From: a virus
IMG/VR virus record: IMGVR_UViG_3300046028_003260
Coordinates: 1 to 25,739 of that record
Length of the DNA stretch: 25,739 bases
Direction: 5' to 3' (one strand)
Part shown: in pieces, positions 7,460 to 25,739 of the stretch
Numbering within the stretch: the first letter of the stretch is position 1
Layout: each line of letters opens with the position of its first letter
Translations under genes and position numbers: made by a program
The notes under the pieces: model-generated
Told to the model about the DNA's origin: nothing
Database searches by the model: none
Seen by the model: the letters and a program-made list of their open reading frames with translations, nothing else

Positions 7460-7882
7460 ATGCCCGATATTGGATATGGCATTGCGCTGGCCGTCAGCGA
7501 TGTCTCCCCCGCCACCACGCCGACAAACGCAATCGGCACCATCATGTCGTTCACGCCGCCTTCGCCGACCCGCGACATCATCGACGTAACCTCGTCGTCG
7601 TCGGCGAACATGGCGCGCGAATTCATCGCTGGTCTCATCGACTACGGCGAAGCGTCTTTTGAGATGCTGTGGGACACCGGCAGCACCGCCGACGCGCTTC
7701 TGCGCGGCATCACGCTGGAGCGGGCGCCCCGCACCTACCGCGCGACGTTCTCGCAGTATTCCCCGGCCCGCACCATCACGTTCTTGGCCTATCTCACGGG
7801 CTATGAGCGCAGCGCGCCGATGGAAGACAAGATGACCGCCACCGTGACGCTCAAAGTCACTGGCGCGCCTGTGTTCGCCTGA
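7460..7882 (+). CDS. Major tail tube protein
   Basis: A 140-residue protein that should polymerise into the tail tube. It begins 'YGIALAVSDVSPATTPTNAIG', contains the family-typical 'PSPTRDIIDVTSSSS' and 'FIAGLIDYGEASFEMLWD', and ends with 'MTATVTLKVTGAP', a pattern shared by lambda gpV-like tube proteins of siphoviruses. A GGAG site lies seven bases before the ATG. It directly precedes the tail chaperone genes, as expected. Confidence 0.9.
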   Translation: MPDIGYGIALAVSDVSPATTPTNAIGTIMSFTPPSPTRDIIDVTSSSSANMAREFIAGLIDYGEASFEMLWDTGSTADALLRGITLERAPRTYRATFSQYSPARTITFLAYLTGYERSAPMEDKMTATVTLKVTGAPVFA

Positions 7883-8202
7883 TGCGGGGCGGCGTCAGCT
7901 TCGACGCTCTCGGCAAGCCGTTTGAACTCCGGTTCACCACGAACGCCATTTGCCGGGTCGAAGAACGCAGCGGGCAGTCGCTGGAGGCCTTGCTTGCCGA
8001 TACTGCCGTGTCTGGCAAGCGCACCCTGTCATTCCGCCTGCTTCTTTGGGCGGCTATTGGCGGCATCACGCTGGAAACAGCCGGCGAGATTATGGACGAC
8101 ATCGGCCCCGTCGAAGTCGACCGCATTCTCGCCGAAGGGCTGCGCTTGGCGTTCCCGCCAAAGGACGACGCACCGGGAAACGGCGAAGCGCCGACGGCCT
8201 AG
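7882..8202 (+). CDS. Tail assembly chaperone, short form (GTA gp10-like)
   Basis: The unshifted 106-residue product, equivalent in role to lambda gpG: it binds tape measure and tube protein during tail assembly and is not in the finished tail. 'ICRVEERSGQSLEALLAD' and 'LLLWAAIGGITLETAGEIMDDIG' resemble the chaperone family named after gene 10 of the Rhodobacter gene transfer agent. It starts by TGATG overlap with the tube gene. The last codons carry a frameshift site (8175-8181), and the TAG at 8200-8202 lies in the loop of the following hairpin. Confidence 0.88.
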   Translation: MRGGVSFDALGKPFELRFTTNAICRVEERSGQSLEALLADTAVSGKRTLSFRLLLWAAIGGITLETAGEIMDDIGPVEVDRILAEGLRLAFPPKDDAPGNGEAPTA

Positions 8203-8522
8203 ACTGGTCGGCGCTTCTGCGGACGTGGGTTGGCCTTGGCCTCGCCCCGCCTGACTTCTGGGACATCACGCTGCGCGAGGCCGCGGTTGTCATGCAGGCC
8301 GCGTCTGACCGCGAGGTCCGCCTGAAGCGCGTCGAAGACGGGCGCGTCTACAGCCTGGCCTATCTGGTGTCGTTCGCCGTGAATGACCCCAAGCGGATGC
8401 CGAAATTCGACAAGGTCTTCCCAGACGGGAAACCGAAGCCCGCGCAAGACCCGGATGAAATCTGGGCGTCGATGCAGGCGTGGGGCGACATGATACAAGC
8501 AGCGGAGGCGCGCGATGGCTGA
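7882..8522 (+). CDS. Tail assembly chaperone, frameshifted long form (G-T type)
   Basis: Predicted 213-residue fusion made by a -1 shift at 8175-8181: residues 1-100 of the short chaperone, then 113 residues read from 8181 to 8519 in the other frame, with stop TGA 8520-8522. The second part contains 'LGLAPPDFWDITLREAAVV', typical of the Phage_TAC_1 family, and a helical 'DEIWASMQAWGDMIQAAEA'. The downstream frame has no ATG or GTG until 8292, well inside the conserved domain, so separate initiation is unlikely. The stop overlaps the tape measure ATG at 8515. In lambda the analogous gpGT recruits tube protein to the tape measure through its T part. Confidence 0.82.
8175..8217 (+). promoter_or_regulatory. 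Programmed -1 ribosomal frameshift signal
   Basis: A slippery heptamer G GGA AAC (8175-8181) is in the correct zero-frame phase, almost the G GGA AAG used in lambda G/GT. Three bases later an 11-bp perfect stem, GAAGCGCCGAC (8185-8195) with GTCGGCGCTTC (8207-8217), closes an 11-base loop that holds the zero-frame TAG. Slippage would pair the tRNAs on GGG AAA and continue at CGG (8181). Confidence 0.85.
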
Positions 8523-10413
8523 AGAAATTGGCGCTCTCCGTGCCGTTCTTGCGTTGGAATCCGCCGCGTTCGACAAGGGCGTGGCATCGGCCCGGCGGCA
8601 GCTTGGCGCAATGGACGGCTCACTGCAGAAGACCGGCGGGCAGGTTGGCCAGTTTGGTTCTCGGATGCGCGACATTGACCGGGGGTCGCGGTCGGCCAGC
8701 GGCGGCCTGCAGAACCTCGGCTTTCAGGTCCAAGACTTTGCAGTCCAGGTTGGCGCCGGGACATCGGCATCGCAAGCTTTGGCGCAGCAGTTGCCGCAGT
8801 TGCTTTCGGGCTTCGGTATGCTTGGGATTATTCTCGGCACTGCTTCAGCGGTTCTGATTCCGCTTGGGGCGGCCATACTGGGCCTCGGGACTAAAGCGTC
8901 CACGCTGAAAGACGCATTGGATGCAGTAAACACCGCCATCCAAGGCACCAGCGACCTGGCTAAGATTGCGCAGGGCGATCTGGACGGGCTGCAGGAGCGA
9001 TATGGGGCCTTAACGCCCGAAGTTATGAGGCTCGCCGAGGCGCAGCGACAGGTCGGGCTGCGCGAACTGGCCGATTCCGCGAAGGTGCTGAACGAAAACC
9101 TGACGGCCCTTTACAGCGGGAGCGCATTTTTCAACGTTAGTCGCGCTGAAGATTTGAGCAACGGCTTGGGGCTTGGGACGAAGGCGGCGCGCGAACTTGC
9201 TGGCGCCCTTGAGGACTTGGGGCAGGCGGAATCACTGGACACCCAGCTTTCCATCGTTGCGCAGATGCGTGAGCGTTTTGTGGAAATGGTCGGCCCGGTA
9301 GGGGAAATGACCGCCGGGCAGCGTGACTTCTATTTTTCGCTGGTCGAGAGCGAAGGCAAGATGCGCGAACTGGAAACGCGCATCAATATGGTTGCTGCAT
9401 CCGCTGAACCGCTTGGCGGCCTGCTGGAAGTGGCGCAGCTTGCGACCAACGGCCTAGCGGCGTCTGCGTCGGCTTTGGCCGGGTATTTCTCCTCTGCGGA
9501 TGGCGCTGCGGCGGGGCTGGCTAACACTTTGGTTGCCGCCGCGAAGAATGCTTGGGCGCTGGCGCAGGCGCGCGTTGCTGCGGAGCAGGCGCAGGACCAG
9601 ACAAACCTTGCTGCGGCCTATGGCCTCAACGCCTTCACGCGAATGCGCGCCCCGGAAGTGCCTGTCGTGGCCGCTGTCAAAGGCGGTGGAGGCGGGGGCG
9701 GCGGGGCGCAGAAAGAAGCGAACGATCTGCAGAGCGAGGCAGCGCGCATCTTTGCCCAAACGCGCACAGAGGCGGAAAAATACGCAATCGAAGTGGAAAA
9801 GCTGAACGGGCTTCTGGCCGCTGGCGGCATCAGCCAAGACACGTTCAACCGGGCTGTCGATGACCTGAAGGACAAGGCCGGCGAAGCGGGCGATGCAGCA
9901 AACCAACTACAATCATCCTTCCAAGACGCATTCACCAGCTTCGTCACCGGCGCGTCAACGGCGCAGGAAGCCGTTTCCAGCCTGCTGTCCAGCCTAGCTT
10001 CAATGCTGGCGAACAAAGCCTTTGAAAGCCTTCTGGGTGGCGGCAAGGGCGGCGGCATCTTCGACACGATTTCAAGCTCCCTTGGCTTTGCAGACGGCGG
10101 CGCGTTCAGCAATGGCCGCGTCACCGCCTTCGCCCGTGGCGGCATCGTCAACAGCCCCACCGTGTTCCCGATGGCGAACGGCGCGGGCCTGATGGGCGAA
10201 GCCGGGCCTGAAGCAATCATGCCGCTCACCCGCGTGGGCGGGAAGCTGGGCGTGCGAACTTCGGGCGGCGGCGGCACGGTGGTGAACATCGACGCGCGCG
10301 GCGCCGTTGAAGGAACGGCCGCGCAGATTGACGCGCGCTTGCGCCAGGCGATGCCAGACATTCTGCGGCAGTCCGTATCTGCGAACCGGGCTGCGGGCGC
10401 GAGGGGCTACTGA
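8515..10413 (+). CDS. Tail tape measure protein
   Basis: Sets tail length and is ejected with the DNA. The 632-residue protein is the largest tail-shaft gene and follows the chaperone, as in lambda. The N-terminus is helical/coiled ('AAFDKGVASARRQLGAMDG'); 'GLQNLGFQVQDFAVQVGAG' leads into a hydrophobic segment 'GMLGIILGTASAVLIPLGAA' likely to insert in the host membrane. A Gly-rich linker is near residues 388-396, and the C-terminus has the recurring 'MGEAGPEAIMPLTR' motif of tape measure proteins. At about 1.5 angstrom per residue a tail near 95 nm would be expected. Start ATG 8515 has GGAGG at 8504-8508. Confidence 0.93.
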   Translation: MAEEIGALRAVLALESAAFDKGVASARRQLGAMDGSLQKTGGQVGQFGSRMRDIDRGSRSASGGLQNLGFQVQDFAVQVGAGTSASQALAQQLPQLLSGFGMLGIILGTASAVLIPLGAAILGLGTKASTLKDALDAVNTAIQGTSDLAKIAQGDLDGLQERYGALTPEVMRLAEAQRQVGLRELADSAKVLNENLTALYSGSAFFNVSRAEDLSNGLGLGTKAARELAGALEDLGQAESLDTQLSIVAQMRERFVEMVGPVGEMTAGQRDFYFSLVESEGKMRELETRINMVAASAEPLGGLLEVAQLATNGLAASASALAGYFSSADGAAAGLANTLVAAAKNAWALAQARVAAEQAQDQTNLAAAYGLNAFTRMRAPEVPVVAAVKGGGGGGGGAQKEANDLQSEAARIFAQTRTEAEKYAIEVEKLNGLLAAGGISQDTFNRAVDDLKDKAGEAGDAANQLQSSFQDAFTSFVTGASTAQEAVSSLLSSLASMLANKAFESLLGGGKGGGIFDTISSSLGFADGGAFSNGRVTAFARGGIVNSPTVFPMANGAGLMGEAGPEAIMPLTRVGGKLGVRTSGGGGTVVNIDARGAVEGTAAQIDARLRQAMPDILRQSVSANRAAGARGY

Positions 10414-20553: not shown

Positions 20554-20808
20554 TCAGCCTGCAAATTCTTTGTATCCTCTGTATTCAGCGAGTAGCCGTC
20601 TGCCGAACAATGCCGACTCCTCAATCGTGAAAGTCACGATGTGGCTTGGGCCTGCCAGAGGCGGGCCTTCGGAAGCCGGCGGGGATGCTTGCGCCGTCAG
20701 GTCAATGACCGGGATGCGAATGCTTCCATTTATGGTGAGGTGCGCGTAAAGATAGCGGTCCTCTAGTAGAGTGAGCTTTGCTTTCTCGATAGCCTGACTC
20801 GGCGTCAT
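20554..20808 (-). CDS. Unknown 84-residue protein between attP and int
   Basis: Last gene of the leftward operon. Its ATG overlaps the integrase stop (ATGA) and a strong AGGGAGAAGGAA lies upstream. It begins with an amphipathic helix ('SQAIEKAKLTLLEDRYLYAH'), has a Pro/Ser/Ala-rich linker at about residues 39-52, and ends 'ALFGRRLLAEYRGYKEFAG'. No helix-turn-helix or known domain is visible. Its location next to attP could fit a recombination accessory protein, but nothing in the sequence proves it. Confidence 0.65.
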   Translation of the reverse strand: MTPSQAIEKAKLTLLEDRYLYAHLTINGSIRIPVIDLTAQASPPASEGPPLAGPSHIVTFTIEESALFGRRLLAEYRGYKEFAG

Positions 20809-21872
20809 TTCCTTCTCCCTTCCAAGGTGTTGAGCTTTACGACAAAATAACTGTCCATCGCCTCCGCCAGATCGTCGTCCATGACATGCGCATATCGGGT
20901 CGTTGTTTCGACGGACGTATGCCCCAGCAGCTTGGACACCAGCTTCAGGTTCTTGGTCTGTCGCAGCATCCGCGTAGCGAAGGTGTGCCGCAGATCGTGG
21001 AAGCGAAAATCTTCAATCCCTGCCTCAATCACGGCTTTGTGAAAGTCGTCGTGAACGCCGCCCCCGCCCGTCGTGATGCGCCGGCGCGGGTTCCCTTTCG
21101 TCCTCTGATCGGCATAGGTCAGCACAAACGGCTTTTCGCTGGCGATGTCTGAGCGGGGCAGGGTGGACAGGAATGCCCGCATTTCGTTGTTGATGGGGAA
21201 GAACATTGTCAGCCCGCCCTTGAGCGCAAAACGAATGCGGGCGTTGTCCATGTCCACGTCGCGCCAGCGCAGGACGCAGATGGTTGCGCGCCTGGCGCCG
21301 GTCATCAGCGCGAACTTGACGAAGGGGTGCAGGTCAACGCGAAGGTGCTGGTATAGCGCGTCCTGCTCGGCCCATGTCAATTCGCGGATGCGCTCGGTCG
21401 GTTCCTTGGCCTGGGGGCGCTTCCAATCCAGCCGGGGAACCTCGGCCTTGTGATAATGGGCCATGTGCCGGATGGCGCGGGCCATGAACTGCAACTCGCG
21501 GTTTGCCGTGGCATCGGCGACAGCCGCGCGGCGTCGGGCCACATAGTGCAGCAGGTCCGCGTCGGTCATTTCCTCCAGCCGCTTGGGCTTGCTGAAGATG
21601 CCAAGAATGGCCTTCGCTTGCGACATGCTGGTGCGCGCGCTTGGCTGCTGAGTGCATACGTCGGCGTAATAGGTGCCGATGGCCTCGGACAAGGTGAAGA
21701 TGCCCACCTTCTCGTCGGTTCGGTGCAGCCCGGCCTTGGCCTCGACGCGGGCTTGCGCCTCTACGGCCTTGGCCGTCTCGAAATCTTCGGTGCCGCAAGT
21801 GCCATGAAATCTACGACCCCCGATCTGAAAGTCGTAGTGCCAGAAGCGCGAGTTTTTGGGGCGGAACGGCAT
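20805..21872 (-). CDS. int: Tyrosine recombinase, phage integrase
   Basis: A 355-residue integrase that should recombine attP (20214-20465) with the host tRNA-Gly(CCC) gene. A long upstream extension is discarded in favour of the ATG at 21872 with GAGGA about ten bases upstream. Catalytic residues are all visible: Arg194 in 'MTGARRATICVLRW', Lys218 in 'FALKGGLTMF', His292/Arg295 in 'FHDLRHTFATRML', His318 in 'LLGHTSVETTTRY' and nucleophile Tyr327. The N-terminal part ('SRFWHYDFQIGGRRF') resembles arm-binding domains, and residues 60-155 the core-binding domain. It overlaps the HTH gene upstream by 112 bases. Confidence 0.96.
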   Translation of the reverse strand: MPFRPKNSRFWHYDFQIGGRRFHGTCGTEDFETAKAVEAQARVEAKAGLHRTDEKVGIFTLSEAIGTYYADVCTQQPSARTSMSQAKAILGIFSKPKRLEEMTDADLLHYVARRRAAVADATANRELQFMARAIRHMAHYHKAEVPRLDWKRPQAKEPTERIRELTWAEQDALYQHLRVDLHPFVKFALMTGARRATICVLRWRDVDMDNARIRFALKGGLTMFFPINNEMRAFLSTLPRSDIASEKPFVLTYADQRTKGNPRRRITTGGGGVHDDFHKAVIEAGIEDFRFHDLRHTFATRMLRQTKNLKLVSKLLGHTSVETTTRYAHVMDDDLAEAMDSYFVVKLNTLEGRRK

Positions 21873-22045
21873 TCCAATGTCCTCGCTTCGATGAAGGCTA
21901 CCAGGTCGTCGGGTTTGTACCGGATAGACCCAGCACTGAGCATGACATAGCGTAACCCGCGATCCCGCAGCCGACGCAAGGTCTTTTCGCTGATGTTTAG
22001 CTGCGCGGCTGCTTCTGCCGGAGTGAGCAAGGCCCGCGCGGTCAT
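21761..22045 (-). CDS. xis: Excisionase-like HTH protein (MerR/HTH_17 type)
   Basis: A 94-residue protein whose first 50 residues, 'LLTPAEAAAQLNISEKTLRR' and 'SIRYKPDDLVAFIEA', form a winged-helix of the HTH_17/excisionase class. Placed directly upstream of int in the same operon, it is the best recombination directionality factor. The C-terminal 35 residues overlap the integrase gene in another frame and are Ser/Thr/Arg-rich, so the true functional end may be the HTH itself. Start chosen at 22045, where ATGA overlaps the preceding small gene; the longer upstream frame overlaps that gene and is rejected. Confidence 0.75.
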   Translation of the reverse strand: MTARALLTPAEAAAQLNISEKTLRRLRDRGLRYVMLSAGSIRYKPDDLVAFIEARTLECRSAPKTRASGTTTFRSGVVDFMALAAPKISRRPRP

Positions 22046-22203
22046 GGCAACGCCATTTTGATATCCACCACTTCCGGCGCCTGGACGTCCTTCCACTTCC
22101 GCACAGTCTCAAGGGCCTCAAGCGCTGCTTCCTTGCCGGTACGTGCGTTTCTGATGCTGATGACCCGCACAAGGGTGTAGCTGACGGTGACTGCGTATTT
22201 CAT
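22042..22203 (-). CDS. Unknown 53-residue protein
   Basis: A short gene linked at both ends by ATGA overlaps (22203-22200 and 22045-22042). The product begins 'MKYAVTVSYTLVRVISIRNA', then a charged helix 'GKEAALEALETVRKWKDVQ' and a tail ending KMALP. The alternating hydrophobic N-terminus suggests a beta-strand or small alpha/beta fold. Its precise fit in the overlapped operon supports it being real; function unknown. Confidence 0.65.
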   Translation of the reverse strand: MKYAVTVSYTLVRVISIRNARTGKEAALEALETVRKWKDVQAPEVVDIKMALP

Positions 22204-25700: not shown

Positions 25701-25739
25701 CCCCCCCCCCCCCCCCCCCCCCCGCGGGGGGGGGGGGGG
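25701..25739. other. Poly-C/poly-G end, probable assembly artefact
   Basis: 23 C, then GCG and a long G run up to the last base. This is unlikely to be natural and probably marks a contig end. Confidence 0.8.

Follow-up and report, generated by a model that had tools for sequence, protein, structure and literature searches.

A very probable lambda-type G/GT tail assembly chaperone gene in a phage record, and putative slip sites or separate starts at the homologous junction of gene transfer agents

The window that is analysed here, i.e. a complete IMG/VR virus record of 25,739 bases, carries two overlapping open reading frames between its major tail protein and tape measure genes, as is expected of a G/GT tail chaperone gene pair; the features of this region are collected in Table 1. 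The upstream frame, which we refer to as G, matches the tail protein family phrog_2115 in a profile search (E 2.8e-7). The downstream frame, which we refer to as T, is open in the -1 frame from 7950 to 8522, overlapping the start of the tape measure frame, and contains a domain that the first-pass annotation had called Phage_TAC_1-like; this is PF09550 (named Phage_TAC_6 in the Pfam copy used), with an E of 8.5e-6 and 26.5 bits against a curated cut-off of 23.4. The tape measure frame itself has a weak match to Tape_meas_lam_C (E 0.013). Outside the tail region, a tyrosine integrase gene is located at positions 20805-22172 on the minus strand (PF00589, E 1.5e-26), so the phage is probably temperate.

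Table 1. Coordinates of the tail chaperone region in the window, with the loci that have C_CCU_UUN at the homologous junction of gene transfer agents.
Feature	Position	Strand	Remarks
Major tail tube protein gene	7460..7882	+	Lambda-type; Phage_TTP_12, E 2.5e-14; just upstream of G
G gene (zero frame)	7882..8202	+	106 aa; tail assembly chaperone G domain; stop TAG 8200-8202
Slippery heptamer G_GGA_AAC	8175..8181	+	Phased for a -1 shift; heptamer kept in phase at 25 homologous loci
T part of the predicted G-T fusion	8181..8522	+	113 aa post-shift; -1 frame; PF09550 domain
Spacer	8182..8184	+	GGC, 3 nt; between heptamer and hairpin
Candidate hairpin stimulator, 5' arm	8185..8195	+	GAAGCGCCGAC
Hairpin loop	8196..8206	+	11 nt; holds zero-frame TAG
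Candidate hairpin stimulator, 3' arm	8207..8217	+	GTCGGCGCTTC
Tape measure gene	8515..10413	+	632 aa; assigned mainly from position and length; just downstream of T
C_CCU_UUN loci of other genomes			L076, L077, L079, L080, L087, L090, L097, L135-L139, L140-L142, L148-L160, L162, L163, L165-L174

The AlphaFold model of G (pLDDT 81) has a fold like that of known tail chaperones: among its matches are several viral proteins that bear the name tail assembly chaperone (E 1e-3 to 1e-2, prob 1.0). No relative of G has been found in the PDB, either by sequence or by fold. In direct tblastn searches of phage records, G gives no matches and T gives distant relatives only.

Near the 3' end of G, the context ccG GGA AAC is phased for simultaneous -1 slippage. 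In-phase heptamers of the form X_XXY_YYZ (Y=A/T) are rare in the window, occurring only five times in the 5075 codons of its structural genes; the other four, at positions 2700, 4319, 12491 and 14824, are followed by -1 extensions of 1, 2, 21 and 61 codons, respectively. There is no ATG, GTG or TTG in the -1 frame between the heptamer and the ATG at 8292, and this ATG falls within the PF09550 domain. The first-pass annotation had described the heptamer and its phase, the spacer, the stem, the stop codon in the loop, the open -1 frame and the missing early start of T, all of which hold.

The alignment of homologues that had been proposed as a check of this arrangement reveals that the heptamer is conserved and that the hairpin is kept in some lineages. 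An in-phase -1 heptamer, followed by a T frame without an early start of its own, occurs at 25 phage and prophage loci, a count that includes the window and near-copies; the heptamer is GGGAAAC in 15 loci, GGGAAAG in six, AAAAAAC in two and AAAAAAG in two. These loci, taken from IMG/VR, from the isolated phage Psul1 and from the genomes of one alphaproteobacterial family (reached through Pseudophaeobacter flagellatus), are mostly 25-50% identical at the protein level, apart from some near-copies. Both heptamer and hairpin are identical to those of the window in the near-copies L002 and L003 (T 90-95% identical), and in L005, where T is about half identical, the GGGAAAC heptamer, the 3-nt spacer, the 11-pair stem and the TAG in the loop are all kept.

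Two relatives are exceptions to this pattern. The isolated Agrobacterium phage Rivra (L009) has no canonical heptamer; it has a strong hairpin around its zero-frame TAG and a CC CCA AGA AGG region (L009:2998-3045), and its public record annotates the T part with a late start. In the second exception, L032, G and T form a single uninterrupted frame (L032:1123-1791), which appears to be a natural G-T fusion without a frameshift, as would be expected if the fusion is the needed product. Taken by itself, L032 would also fit a sequencing error in the window, i.e. a single gene that has been split by an artefact; the probability of such an error is negligible, and the relatives refute it, as independent assemblies and isolated phages, e.g. 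Psul1, have the same -1 relation with an in-phase heptamer. In the public record of this Paracoccus phage (L008, psul1_p36), the annotated start of T is located about 95 nt past the G stop, the T homology reaches back over a G_GGA_AAG site, and the frameshift of the tail chaperone is apparently unannotated.

It could alternatively be proposed that T is made as a separate protein, by translational coupling past the G stop from the ATG at 8292 or from a non-standard start, with the heptamer being incidental; this ATG is in the T frame, and the gene transfer agents (GTAs) of Rhodobacteraceae do start their T equivalent on its own, at ATGA overlaps. We regard this as very unlikely: a start at 8292, inside PF09550, would lose the conserved DW...FWD..RE part, the T frame upstream of this ATG is conserved as protein among the homologues, the heptamer is present in phase at the 25 loci, and in GTAs, a separate start and a heptamer exclude each other, as described below. 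The reading that we favour, with very high confidence, is that positions 7882-8522 are a lambda-type G/GT tail assembly chaperone gene, in which a minority of ribosomes would slip by -1 on G_GGA_AAC. It is the conservation in relatives that identifies the gene pair as such, and the lambda-type -1 frameshift that had been suggested from the window alone is supported by the phase, the heptamer and the missing T start across the 25 loci, as well as by the compensated changes in the hairpin.

The hairpin begins directly after the 3-nt spacer, with all of the 11 pairs of its stem being perfect. It is the only perfect stem of at least 11 bp (loop 3-15) on the plus strand of the window, with the end of the record left aside, and first-order Markov simulations give an expectation of 0.15 such stems per window. 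The end of the record (positions 25701-25739) is a long poly-C, then GCG, then poly-G, and is probably a sequencing or assembly artefact. The TAG is located in the loop because of what the T frame encodes there: its bases overlap, with an offset of one, the codons of a conserved [V/L/I]-D-W motif. In the window, the bases cTA GAC of the loop encode, in the -1 frame, the L-D of an LDW motif (cTA GAC TGG). The stop may in addition tune the ratio of the products, as the first-pass annotation had suggested. The first-pass annotation had singled out the spacer as unusually short; its length is correct, but it is not peculiar to the window, because stems that begin 1-4 nt past the heptamer, with the stop in the loop or at its edge, recur across several homologous lineages.

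It is possible that the hairpin is a by-product of overlapping frames or of GC-rich sequence, and that the heptamer alone gives the shift. A strong hairpin is missing from many homologues that have the heptamer (z about -1 to +1), and is therefore not a general feature; in the window, folding over 161 nt is unexceptional (z -0.9), compared with z -2.8 over the 55 nt past the heptamer and z -2.2 over 61 nt. We nevertheless consider such a by-product unlikely, since the window clade, L005, L028/L039, L036, L041 and L009 all have a strong stem at this position that surrounds or adjoins the stop (z -2.0 to -9.0), and since the pairing survives changes on both sides. When the window, L005 and L028 are compared, 33 out of 33 cells pair, all 11 pairs are kept and four of the 11 are changed on both sides, against 0-1 in slid-register controls; these three divergent lineages have been registered by hand around their hairpins, and a choice of alignment of this kind makes the covariation statistics lean towards structure.

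The frameshift of tail chaperones is of an already known kind, and the window adds one more case, with an unusually clear hairpin. In lambda, the subject of the G/GT work of Levin 1993 and of Xu, Hendrix & Duda 2004, 2013 and 2014 (as summarised in PMC5009743), the order is likewise tail tube - G - T - tape measure, T is in the -1 frame and a heptamer of the G_GGA_AAR/C type is located close to the 3' end of G; the hairpin directly past the heptamer (3 nt) is a difference of the window from lambda, and no sequence-level link from the genes of the window to lambda G or T has been found. In virus HCTV-1, the g-t genes shift at the same heptamer as in the window, G_GGA_AAC; in E. coli, ribosomes are highly prone to shift on G_GGA_AAG (PMC5009743). 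Among phages of Gram-positive hosts, the TP901-1 relatives TP712, PLgT-1, BL3 and phiFL3A have a T protein that is longer than that of the window and resembles it at 35-37% over 65 aa; these distant relatives have T_TTU_UUC in phase for the -1 shift instead of G_GGA_AAC. In TP901-1 itself, no tails are made when the slippery site is lost, and the particles are non-infectious when G and T are permanently fused (PMC4493119). A -1 frameshift in the tail chaperone is also reported as usual for most phages of Rhodobacter capsulatus (PMC8601537, PMC4882933), alphaproteobacterial siphophages that are likened to the window here by their description.

By analogy with lambda and TP901-1, we infer the following course of events. 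Most ribosomes would stop at the zero-frame TAG to give G, while a minority would slip by -1 at the heptamer, with the aid of the hairpin at 8185-8217, to give a G-T fusion protein of about 213 aa. G would coat the tape-measure protein, the T part of the fusion would recruit the tail tube protein, and the ratio of G to GT would matter for the assembly of the tail.

Gene transfer agents are domesticated phage remnants, and one of them, RcGTA, has a gene pair, g10/g10.1 (rcc01692/rcc01693; PF09550, TIGR02216), to which both halves of the window pair are homologous, in the same gene order. In profile-profile comparisons, phage G matches GTA g10 with a probability of 98.4% (E 6e-15) and phage T matches GTA g10.1 with a probability of 96.5% (E 8e-10), whereas the crossed controls between phage G or T and GTA g10 or g10.1 fail. 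Against TIGR02216, the rcc01693 equivalog, the T of the window reaches 14 bits, below the cut-off of 56.1; it is a homologue of g10.1, but not that GTA gene itself. In the GTAs of Rhodobacteraceae, unlike in the window, g10.1 is shorter and is started separately, mostly at an ATGA overlap. The tape measure of the window (632 aa, against about 215-245 aa in GTAs), together with the integrase, points to a temperate phage.

The comparison of g10/g10.1 junctions has revealed two arrangements. In Rhodobacteraceae-type genomes, sampled by TIGR02216, the start codon of g10.1 is located at or just before the xDW motif in 30 out of 30 GTA loci, mostly as an ATGA over the g10 stop, and none of these 30 junctions has an in-phase heptamer; a single genome holds both arrangements, with a heptamer in its prophage pair (L022) and an ATGA in its GTA pair (L024). 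In other Alphaproteobacteria, RcGTA-type loci have been found by searching the class, as well as four orders, with PF09550; for those that were sampled, GTA identity has been established from RcGTA_tape, TIGR02217, TIGR02218 and TIGR02219, from the gene layout and from g9 similarity. At 40 of these loci, C_CCU_UUN is located exactly at the junction, in phase with g10, the seventh base being C in 27 loci, T in nine and G in four. No ATG or GTG for T occurs within 60 nt upstream in 39 of the 40, the remaining locus, L156, having an in-frame GTG. The first-pass annotation had taken the equivalent GTA domains to be separate genes, which stands for the 30 Rhodobacteraceae loci and does not extend to these 40.

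The -1 frame at the C_CCU_UUN sites codes for P-F-x-W, and all of the 40 sites read CCC TTT, although in the same genes CCC makes up 22% of the Pro codons and TTT 28% of the Phe codons. The 40 sites have been picked by the CCC TTT motif, so the unbiased figures are those per order: C_CCU_UUN is present in five out of five loci of order G520, in 25 out of 28 of order G534 and in eight out of about 30 of order G537, and the remaining loci of G534 and G537 lack the heptamer and do have a start codon. For the first 15 slip-type loci, the argument from the Phe codon is weak, as their start-type relatives often use TTT too; it becomes strong once the preceding CCC and the 25 loci from a TTC-preferring order are added. 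In order G520, five out of five loci have a strong hairpin past the heptamer (z -2.2 to -5.4, better than shuffled sequences), and a consensus fold of the five junctions has mixed covariation only.

Overall, about 40 loci have a heptamer without a start, about 60 have a start without a heptamer and seven have neither, an exclusion with a Fisher p of about 1e-22 (L156 being counted as start-less, and the statistic ignoring relatedness). G_GGA_AAG occurs in three of the seven loci with neither, one of the three being a non-GTA prophage; in the RcGTA-type loci L081 and L100, it is located near the g10 stop in place of C_CCU_UUN. In slip-type GTAs, an NTG that overlaps the zero-frame stop could be read as a coupled start of T, a reading that we have rejected: whenever the zero-frame stop is TGA, the T frame necessarily has NTG|A, such a start would fall past the conserved F-x-W motif, and the base N at those sites is C or T, never A or G.

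With C_CCU_UUN and no T start at their junctions, the GTAs outside Rhodobacteraceae probably frameshift too. On this comparison of sequences, we hold it likely that RcGTA-type GTAs outside Rhodobacteraceae fuse g10 and g10.1 by a -1 shift at C_CCU_UUN, or in a few cases at G_GGA_AAG, and that several lineages, among them Rhodobacteraceae, have switched to a separate start that overlaps the g10 stop. For the family as a whole, a slip site seems to be the common arrangement, and separate starts seem to characterise Rhodobacteraceae together with some other GTAs. In a quick tree of g9+g10+g10.1 from 58 GTA loci (unrooted, 301 columns), four changes between slip type and start type are needed, and slip-type loci are located on several deep branches; as the tree is unrooted, it does not by itself distinguish gain from loss of the slip site, but all of the close phage relatives are slip-type, which would favour its loss in several GTA lineages. 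It had been proposed that this phage links a GTA chaperone family to the lambda mechanism; both halves are indeed homologous, but the C_CCU_UUN junctions within GTAs mean that it is not the lone bridge between the two. A limited literature search, which does not prove novelty, has found no papers that report g10/g10.1 frameshifting in GTAs.

The GTA comparison outweighs the case of the window, as it ties g10/g10.1 to the G/T chaperones in both halves and brings out a natural switch within one family, with a slip site in some GTAs and a separate start in others. If the proposed shift is real, g10.1 is probably mis-annotated, i.e. truncated or missed, in many GTA clusters. The switch would also be a natural experiment on the long-standing question of why tailed particles require G and GT in a fixed ratio as well as a physical fusion: start-type GTAs, of which RcGTA is the studied relative, would build their tails without the fusion, and slip-type GTAs would not.
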